64,000 nucleotides of DNA from Spiroplasma culicicola AES-1 (GTDB lineage Bacteria > Bacillota_I > Bacilli_A > Mycoplasmatales > Mycoplasmataceae): the NCBI RefSeq assembly GCF_000565175.1, contig NZ_CP006681.1:930001-994000 (forward strand), written 5' to 3'. The notes beneath the pieces are model-generated. The model saw only the letters and a program-made list of their open reading frames with translations. It searched no databases and was not told the DNA's origin. Both the position numbers and the translations under genes were made by a program. Shown here piece by piece: positions 35,061-45,814 of this stretch (within the stretch, counting starts at the first letter, position 1; the number at the start of each line of letters is the position of its first letter).

Positions 35061-35087
35061 ATTTTCCCTCCAATATAGTTATCGTCA
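35061..35087 (-). promoter_or_regulatory. Shared leader motif, copy B (with ribosome site)
   Basis: Minus-strand TGACGATAACTATATTGG (35070-35087) followed by AGGG and A/T bases, 9 bp before the Panacea ATG. It differs at one base from the copy at 20741-20758. Confidence 0.6.
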
Positions 35088-42183: not shown

Positions 42184-45171
42184 TTATTTAATATTTTTCT
42201 TAAATTCTATTAAGATTGCCGATATTTTGTTATTAAACAATTGGGTTTTAATTTTTAAAATTAAATATTTTCCAATAGCAATCTCATTTTTAATTTTTTC
42301 ATAAGTTGAAGCAAAAATAGTCATTACCATACTTGCGCTTTCATCACTGATATCAACAAAACACATTTGTCCCCCATTTTTATCAGTTTTTGTAACAATA
42401 TTTTCAACCATTACTAAAACATCACTTGTCATATTATCCTTATTTAAATTTGATAAATAAATTAACTTATCATTATTAACAATTTTTTTGCGAAAAATAC
42501 TTAATGGATGAGAACTGACATAAAATCCGAGATATTCTTTTTCAAAAGCTACAATTTCTTCTAAATTATCTTTTGATTGACGAATATCTAAGCTTAATTC
42601 ACTTGCATGTAACGTATGTTTAATATTGGCAAGATTTAAAATGGCTTCACGGTTTTCAATTAATTCTTTTCTAGAATAGCCATAAATATCAAATGCACCT
42701 GAATAAACTAAAGCATTATACTTTTGTTCTCCTAATCCAAATTGAGACAATTGTGAAAGTAAAATTAAAATATTGTCAAAAACAGCTTTATCTGTTTTAA
42801 AGATTGTTTGAATATTTTTAATAAATTCAGGTCCAATTGTTTTAATAGTATTTAAAGGCATATTAATTGTATTATTTGTAAAATAATAGCGTTTATTTGG
42901 ATTTTTTATACTTGGTCCATTAATTTTATAACCATAGTTTTTTAATTCATTTAAATATTGTGATGTCCTAACTTCATTTCTTAAAACTCCGTTTAGTAAT
43001 GAACAATAAAATTCAACTTTATAATGAGTTTTTAAATAAGCCATTCAGTAACTGATAATTGAATAAGAGATAGCATGTGACTTATTAAATCCATACTCTG
43101 CAAATTTTTCAACATAATGTCATAATTCCTCTGCTTTGTTTTTTTCATACCCAGAATTAAGTGCACCATTCATAAATTCACTTTTAAACTGATTCATTAA
43201 TTTTTGATCTTTTTTCCCCATAGCTCGTCTAACAATATCAGATTTACTTAAACTAAAACCAGCAACTCTTTGTAATAATTGCATTACTTGTTCTTGATAA
43301 ACAATAATTCCATAAGTGTAACCTAAAATATCTTCCAAATTATTATCAATTATATAATCGGCTTGTTTTTGATTTTTTCTTTCAATATATAGAGGGATAT
43401 TTTCTTGAGGGCCTGGTCTATAAAGTGATGAAGTAATTGCTATATCATCAATTGATGTAGGATTCATTTTTCTTAAAACTTCTGTCATTCCACTAGATTC
43501 AAGTTGAAAAATTCCACTAGTTTGACCAGTCTTTAATAATTCAAATGTCTCTTGATCTCTATCTAAAATATGTTCTAAAGCAAGAGTTTCATTTCTTTGC
43601 GTTTGAATTATTTTTAACACTTCTTGAATAGTTGTTAAGTTTCTTAAACCTAAGATATCAGTTTTAATTAAACCAATATCTTCTAAATAGTTCATTGAAA
43701 ATTGAGTTTGAGATATTCCATTAATTCCCATTTTAGTTGGTACTACTTGATGCATTGGTATATCACAAAATACAACTCCAGCAGCGTGGGTTCCAGTTTG
43801 ACGTGGCAATCCTATAATATTTTTAATAACCCCAAAAATTCTTGGATACTTTTCTTGATATTTTGTCAAAATTTTTGATTCAGAAAGTGCTTTATCTAAA
43901 TCTTTAATATTTCCATCATAAATTTGCTTTGTCATTTGATTAATTTCATCATTTGGAATATCAAAAACACGTCCACAATCTCTTAAAGCATTTTTAATTC
44001 CAATTGTTTGAAAAGTTGTAATTGTTGCAAAATGATCTTTGCCATATTTTTCAAATAAATATTCCAAGACTTCTTCTCTTCGGTCATCTTGAAAATCAAT
44101 ATCAATATCGGGCATAGTAACTCTTTCAATATTTAAAAATCTTTCAAATAATAAACCTCATTTAATTGGATCTGGTTGTGTTATGCCTAATAAATAGGCT
44201 ACCAAACTTCCAGCAGCACTACCTCTTCCTGGACCAACTAAAATATTTTTTTCTTTAGCAGCGTTTACCATATCTGCAACTATTAAAAAATAATCAGCAA
44301 ATCCCATTTTCTTAATAACATCTAATTCATAATTTAAGCGCTCTAAATATTGATTTTTATCAATTTCATAATTTAACTCACTCAATTTTTCATAACATAT
44401 TTTTTCCAAATAACTATCTGAAGGCATTTTTTGAGCATTTGGATAAGTTAAAAAGTGTTTTGCTTGATAATCAATTACTTGATTTTCAATTTGACTAGCT
44501 ATTAAATCAATATTTTGATTATGTAAGTTCATGTCCATATATTGATTTACTTGATTTGATGTAAAATAAAAATTTTTTGAAACAGTATCAACTTCATTTA
44601 ACAGTTTAGCTTCACCAATTGCTCTTAAAACTTTAAAATCAAAGTAATCATCTTCATATAAAAAATTTATTTCATTAGCAAAAACTATATTTTGATCTTT
44701 TTTTAAATATTCATAATTTACTTTTGTAACTCCATAAAATAAATTGGCTTTAAATAAAGAATTAATTTTTGATTTAAAATTATCAAAATTTTCAATTGTT
44801 GGAATAAAAATAACAATATTATTGTCATAGTTTAAGTTAAAAATTTCTTTTTCAATTTTATTAATATCATAGCGATCTAAATTAGAAATATAAGAAGAAA
44901 TATAAGATACATTTTGATATCCCAAATTATTTTTAGCAAATAGCAAAATTCTTCCATAGGAAATATCAACGTTTACTCCAATTACTGGTTTTATATCATT
45001 CTCTTTTGCTAATTGTAAAAATTCAGCAACTCCATACATAGTATTATTTTCTGCATAAAAACCCAATTTAAAATCATTTCTTTTTAAGAAATTGATATAG
45101 TCTTGAGGTCTAATTGTGGAATTTAAAAAATTATAACTTGTTTGTAAATTTAATAAATTTAAATATTCCAT
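42184..45171 (-). CDS. dnaE: DNA polymerase III alpha subunit DnaE
   Basis: C-family replicative polymerase, 995 residues. The catalytic motif [19 protein letters not shown] (about residues 352-370) and the fingers ([19 protein letters not shown]) are intact. The N-terminal PHP domain begins [14 protein letters not shown] where active PHP domains have HxH, so metal binding there seems lost. It is shorter than E. coli DnaE (1160). TGA tryptophans at two or more places. ATG 45171 follows AGAGGTGG; a GTG at 45180 would overlap that site. Confidence 0.95.
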
Positions 45172-45211: not shown

Positions 45212-45315
45212 TTAAAAAAGGTTGTTCTTGGAGGACAACCTTTAAGAAAGCATATCTTTAATAATCAACAATATAATCATCTATCGTTTGAGTGGGTTAA
45301 TGAAATATCATTAAC
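45212..45315 (-). ncRNA. Candidate small RNA with CCUCC terminator loop
   Basis: No ORF fits this gap. On the minus strand a promoter (45322-45349) would start an RNA near 45315. The RNA opens with GGTGTTAATG, which folds with CATTAACCC around ATATTT, and ends in a strong terminator AAAGGTTGT / ACAACCTTT (45217-45243) followed by T6. The 9-nt terminator loop reads CCTCCAAGA, which contains an anti-Shine-Dalgarno string. I do not recognise a known family (not tmRNA, SRP RNA or RNase P RNA). It could also be an attenuator leader of dnaE, but dnaE has its own -10 after the terminator. Confidence 0.55.
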
Positions 45316-45321
45316 ACCTTT

Positions 45322-45349
45322 ATGATAACACTAAAAGTATAAAAAACAA
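45322..45349 (-). promoter_or_regulatory. Promoter of the candidate small RNA
   Basis: TTGTTT (45344-45349), 16-bp spacer, TATCAT (45322-45327) on the minus strand. Confidence 0.5.
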
Positions 45350-45391
45350 TATTTTTTTTATTTTTTTAAAAAATATTAGAAAATTTTCTAA

Positions 45392-45814
45392 TTAATGTTT
45401 TCGACTTTCCATAATAGTTTCATAAGCATTATTTATCTTTGTCATTTCTGCTTGTGCTTCAATGCTTGGGTTTCTATCTGGGTGATATTTCTTTGCAAGT
45501 ATGCGATATTTCTTTTTAATTTCTGTATCTGTTGCAGATTTTGTTAAACCAAAAACAGAATATGCTTCATCTACAATTGAAGTTGAATTTCTATATGATG
45601 AATAATCTTCGCTATTTCTTTCATAAGAACCTTGGCTATTTTGATTTCCCCCAAAAGTATCATCATTAAAAGTTTGATGACCTTGTTGTTGATCATAGCT
45701 ATTATAGTTTCTTTTTCTTTTTCTATTAAAAATTGAATCAAATATTAAATCCATAATTATTCAAATAAACATATAGTAAAATATACGTCCAATTATTCTT
45801 AATAAATCATCCAT
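45392..45814 (-). CDS. Membrane-anchored J-domain protein
   Basis: 140 residues. A hydrophobic N-terminal segment (about 5-22, with a TGA tryptophan) anchors it. A polar Asn/Gln/Ser-rich linker (about 30-75) leads to a C-terminal J domain (about 83-137) with KKYRILAKKYHPDRNPSIEA; the HPD motif needed to stimulate DnaK is intact. No zinc or substrate domain is present, so it is a DnaJ-like (type III) co-chaperone, perhaps bringing DnaK to the membrane. Confidence 0.88.

Follow-up and report, generated by a model that had tools for sequence, protein, structure and literature searches.

The window, by which we mean the whole 64,000-nt stretch of Spiroplasma culicicola DNA analysed here, carries dnaE and the gene of a J-domain membrane protein on its minus strand. 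The two are 220 bp apart, measured from the ATG of dnaE (45171) to the stop codon of the J-domain gene, or 211 bp from an alternative GTG start. No ORFs of at least 40 aa were found wholly inside this gap, which bears out the description of an ORF-free gap in an earlier note on this DNA. The same note claimed a minus-strand transcription unit with a promoter, a 5′ hairpin and a terminator. All these elements are present, and what supports the unit decisively is that four other genomes have it conserved at the orthologous position. The features are the following.

45392-45814, minus strand: J-domain membrane protein gene, upstream neighbour of the RNA
45349-45344, minus strand: −35-like hexamer TTGTTT, weak; TTGAAA or TTGATA at the same place in three relatives
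45327-45322, minus strand: −10 hexamer TATCAT with TG before it (extended −10); the other four homologues have TATAAT
45315-45214, minus strand: predicted non-coding RNA of 102 nt, from a start G at 45315 to the end of the T-tract at 45214; start and length agree in all five homologues
45315-45296, minus strand: 5′-terminal hairpin GTTAATGA-TATT-TCATTAAC (helix 1), conserved in position and rewritten in sequence with compensatory changes
45289-45248, minus strand: conserved core AAACGATAGATGATTATATTGTTGATTATTAAAGATATGCTT, predicted to be mostly unpaired; likely functional site from sequence comparison
45259-45247, minus strand: possible small hairpin of four pairs, AAAG-AUAUG-CUUU, at the core's 3′ end; weak, with one compensatory change (outer pair A-U here, U-A in the relatives)
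45243-45217, minus strand: intrinsic terminator AAAGGTTGT-CCTCCAAGA-ACAACCTTT with a 9-bp stem (helix 3), then T's to 45214
45234-45226, minus strand: terminator loop CCUCCAAGA, not conserved in sequence
45209-45196, minus strand: dnaE's own promoter element TAATTGTGTAAAAT, 3′ of the RNA terminator; of the TGTnAAAAT type found in 20/20 genomes
42184-45171, minus strand: dnaE, DNA polymerase III alpha subunit (PHP type), downstream gene of the RNA

A 117-nt stretch of the locus folded at −26.4 kcal/mol, compared with −14.1 ± 2.8 kcal/mol for shuffled sequences (z −4.4), which was better than all 200 shuffles. Just before the RNA promoter, at 45345-45385 of the window (minus strand), an AT-only hairpin AATATTTTTT..AAAAAAATATT followed by a T-tract is likely to be the terminator of the J-domain gene.

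Homologues were recognised by lining up the dnaE leaders of all 20 genomes of the GTDB genus of S. culicicola (hereafter, the genus). Four of the 19 other genomes had the RNA directly upstream of dnaE: G018 (S. taiwanense), G019, G010 and G005. A plain DNA search with the gap in the genus returned AT-rich chance matches only, and no relatives came out of a search of the named genome collection with the dnaE protein. The gene order around the RNA is shared and reads EzrA-like, thiI, J-domain, RNA, dnaE, where the names of the neighbours are what we take them to be from their translations. In G019 the J-domain gene is separated from the RNA by two inserted genes, and the RNA and dnaE are still adjacent.

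A covariance model built from the core alone (R1) scored the five dnaE loci at 57.7-75.7 bits among 60 genomes of the family, with the next best match at 29.2 bits. Those weaker matches that were inspected were coding-like sequence. The scan used strict filters and scored the top candidates of each genome, so that strongly diverged copies could be missed. Within the order, the exact core pattern was present in the same five genomes and missing from the other 315 that were searched; it was not found in viral contigs either. Three matches of the pattern in unrelated genomes were set aside as coding-like sequence that lacked the other parts of the RNA. A phage or plasmid origin was likewise rejected. 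The earlier note had suggested a covariance model drawing on Mesoplasma and Entomoplasma genomes, but neither the model scan of the family nor the pattern search of the order found relatives outside this GTDB genus.

Within the genus the full-length model found the RNA at none of the other 15 dnaE loci. The RNA is thus dispensable, being absent from 15 of the 20 genomes. The carriers fall in three places on the dnaE tree: a deep clade of three genomes, S. taiwanense, which is the first branch of its clade, and the window species. This presence and absence needs three changes, and one old gain followed by later losses fits it. Two dnaE leaders are of note here: AACTATAAAAAATATACTTACTAAGATATGTTT in G007 (L050), which is more decayed in G015 (L051), looks like the core; it may have degraded from the RNA or be similar by chance, and the full-length model gives it no score. 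Separately, a promoter and 5′ hairpin like those of the window, TATATCATAAAGGTGGTTATAG..CTATAACCAT, stand before an unrelated gene in G002 (L034:550-600; G002:C1:59350-59400).

The alignment of the five homologues bears on the structure. Over the RNA structure 86.6% of cells were paired, and 10 of 27 pairs had changed on both sides, compared with 3.9 ± 1.5 in shuffled alignments (0 of 500 shuffles as high), a count that comes from five sequences only, three of them from one clade. The covariation score was 0.33, against at most 0.12 when the structure was slid along the alignment. Helix 1 contributed four pairs changed on both sides, with 93.9% of its cells paired, and helix 3 contributed six.

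Between the two hairpins the sequence AAC[G/T]ATAGAT..ATTGTTGAT..AAGATATGCTT is nearly invariant across the five homologues. Forty core bases are identical between G010 (and G005) and G018; the longest coding stretches that are identical across this 12-kb region are of about the same length. The dnaE proteins of G010, G005 and G018 are 50-61% identical to that of the window and lie on deep branches of the dnaE tree. The S. culicicola core is the most drifted copy and has kept AAC-ATAGAT, ATTGTTGAT and AAGATATGCTT. A small core hairpin, AAG-AUAUG-CUU, has one compensatory change and is uncertain. In the relatives the stems are kept by compensatory changes, but the sequence of the terminator loop is not. 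What is conserved is the stretch of about 40 nt that separates the hairpins, on which the earlier note is silent. Since the core is what is conserved, function most likely resides there, and we regard it as the likely functional part of the RNA on this comparison. A real, previously uncatalogued RNA family is, in our opinion, very probable.

The RNA could also be functionless, either a remnant in decay or noise such as transcription in AT-rich mollicute genomes produces. Spurious small transcripts are more numerous where AT content is higher (PMC5138195), and the RNA has been lost in several lineages. However, the comparative data already contradict this reading, because covariation and 40-nt identity over deep divergence need selection, and we consider it very improbable.

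The earlier note drew attention to the terminator loop, whose CCUCC, it suggested, could bind Shine-Dalgarno sequences. Under that mechanism the C-rich loop would block such sequences, the one of the Panacea gene among them. In S. culicicola the CCUCC loop and the 7-nt match are real: UUGGAGG is present at 35067-35073 (minus strand), before the Panacea gene, and among the leaders of the window that of Panacea pairs best with the loop. However, the energy of this pairing was reached by 35% of shuffled loops, and the CCUCC loop was found only in S. culicicola; the loops of the four homologues are AAUAAAG (two), UUUAAU and UAU. A conserved C-rich loop, the mark of small RNAs that act against Shine-Dalgarno sequences in this way, was not found among the five homologues. 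TTGGAGG occurs 11 times in the window on both strands, the loop's own complement included. We regard the mechanism as hardly credible; judging from the alignment, the RNA is probably a real regulatory RNA that does not act through an anti-Shine-Dalgarno loop.

Mapped promoters of S. melliferum have a −10 of TAWAAT and an EXT element TRTG, and transcription starts at a G or A after a 6-nt spacer (PMC5138195). By these rules, the predicted start in all five homologues is the G that opens the 5′ hairpin, 6 nt after the −10, and the predicted RNAs are 98-102 nt long. The −35/−10 pairs are strong (11/12) in three relatives and weaker in the window and in G005. Taken alone, the window promoter, with a spacer of 16 nt on the minus strand, is weak (8/12 consensus matches, under the threshold of the scan). 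At sequence level the locus nonetheless has what is looked for in a bacterial intergenic small RNA, namely its own promoter and an intrinsic terminator. RNA-seq of S. taiwanense recorded only tmRNA and rnpB as highly expressed non-coding RNAs (PMC5726471). The pipeline accepted only contigs that reached 100 nt and had high coverage (PMC5726471), and with such cut-offs a 101-nt RNA could easily have escaped it.

A TGTnAAAAT-type element lies 26-45 nt before the dnaE start in 20/20 genomes, with or without the RNA, and it lies beyond the terminator where the RNA is present. Because dnaE keeps this promoter element 3′ of the terminator, the RNA appears to be transcribed as a unit of its own rather than only as the leader of dnaE, and dnaE would have no need of the RNA's promoter. 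The unannotated, independently terminated small RNA proposed for this strand is a candidate strongly supported by comparative evidence. The −35 region of the dnaE promoter overlaps or adjoins the terminator T-tract (L035-L054), so terminating polymerases could interfere with initiation at dnaE.

The linkage of RNA and dnaE in 5/5 genomes also allows a role in cis. The RNA would in that case be a riboswitch or attenuator leader of dnaE-polA, the core serving as aptamer or sensor and the terminator deciding on read-through into dnaE. Its constant position directly upstream of dnaE, even where two genes are inserted on the other side, suits such a leader, as does an anatomy of a conserved core between variable hairpins with a terminator following at once. 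Terminator-type riboswitches similarly have a conserved core beside a terminator, upstream of a gene. The present RNA differs from them in the separate promoter element of dnaE and in having no conserved antiterminator: in no species did the 5′ arm of the terminator pair with upstream sequence more than with shuffled upstream sequence. Antiterminator control was accordingly rejected, there being no conserved alternative pairing. No Rfam riboswitch matched either, and we hold a cis-acting leader to be rather unlikely. It is quite unlikely that the core does the sensing or acting in a kind of regulatory RNA not seen before, in a genome-reduced bacterium; such an RNA might, for example, sense a ligand or the state of replication and be tied to DNA polymerase III expression. 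A small leader peptide was also considered and rejected: the ATG in AAGATATGCTT opens tiny ORFs that are not kept in S. taiwanense.

Searches for a partner of the core were made in several sets. Against the leaders of the window its pairing was at chance level, with 59% of shuffles as good, and chance level was also found for the core against dnaE leaders and against rRNA. Pairing with rRNA and with the dnaE leader were accordingly rejected as modes of action. The seed AAGCATATCTT was more frequent in RNA-positive genomes, with 19 sites in five genomes, not counting the RNA itself, versus 26 in 15. Nearly all of these sites fall within genes, either mid-gene or antisense, and a near-duplicate pair accounts for two of them. 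An 18-nt complement of the core showed no clear difference between RNA-positive and other genomes. Over the genus, no set of seed sites stood clearly above background, and we treat the seed counts as only suggestive of targets. In G005 an 11-nt complement of the core falls in the first codons of a pyrG-like gene (L152, G005:C1:1130131; MSKHIFITGG), making that gene a possible target on sequence grounds.

A core conserved almost fully with no detectable RNA partner could instead be recognised by a protein, the RNA acting as a sponge or scaffold, and the possible AAG-AUAUG-CUU hairpin would suit this. No candidate protein, known binding motif or Rfam match came up, however, and we find a protein-binding RNA unlikely. 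Trans base pairing is preferred on two grounds: the end of the unit precedes the dnaE promoter element, and there is no conserved antiterminator. We therefore lean, with modest confidence, towards a new family of small non-coding RNAs of about 100 nt in Apis-clade spiroplasmas that would base-pair in trans through the core. The RNA would be transcribed from its own sigma-A promoter, and the 5′ hairpin at its very start would protect the 5′ end. The core, some 40 nt long, nearly invariant and for the most part unpaired, would be exposed ahead of the intrinsic terminator in which the RNA ends. The core might then pair with one or more target RNAs, the hairpins being stabilisers.

The spiroplasmas of the compared set are insect-associated, and to our knowledge few regulatory RNAs are supported in spiroplasmas. 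Intergenic transcription in mollicutes has largely been ascribed to noise (PMC5138195, PMC5726471). An RNA that selection has maintained at a single locus through genus-wide divergence is a concrete and easily tested case, and its conserved core indicates where the function should be sought.

Known RNA families offer partial likenesses. At the gathering score, Rfam 15 gave no match over the RNA in the window, L046 or L053; below it, the best staphylococcal families were far under their thresholds, such as RsaB with 15.0 bits versus 55. The tracrRNA of Spiroplasma type II CRISPR systems is also a small RNA that ends in a terminator and is patchy in the genus. Cas9 is absent from the window's genome and from G005, both of which carry the RNA, so it is not a tracrRNA and that identity was rejected. 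MCS4 of Mycoplasma capricolum, a U6-like RNA of a relative, is likewise small and stable, with a length of about 100-125 nt. The Rfam U6 model gave no match to the present RNA, and no homologue of the latter was found elsewhere in the family. RNAs of the RsaE/RoxS type are trans-acting small RNAs of Firmicutes with C-rich loops. Like them, the RNA described here is short and intergenic, with its own promoter, hairpins and an intrinsic terminator, all of them predicted in our case. It differs in having no conserved C-rich loop and no Rfam match, and in that the part conserved is an A/U-rich, unpaired core.
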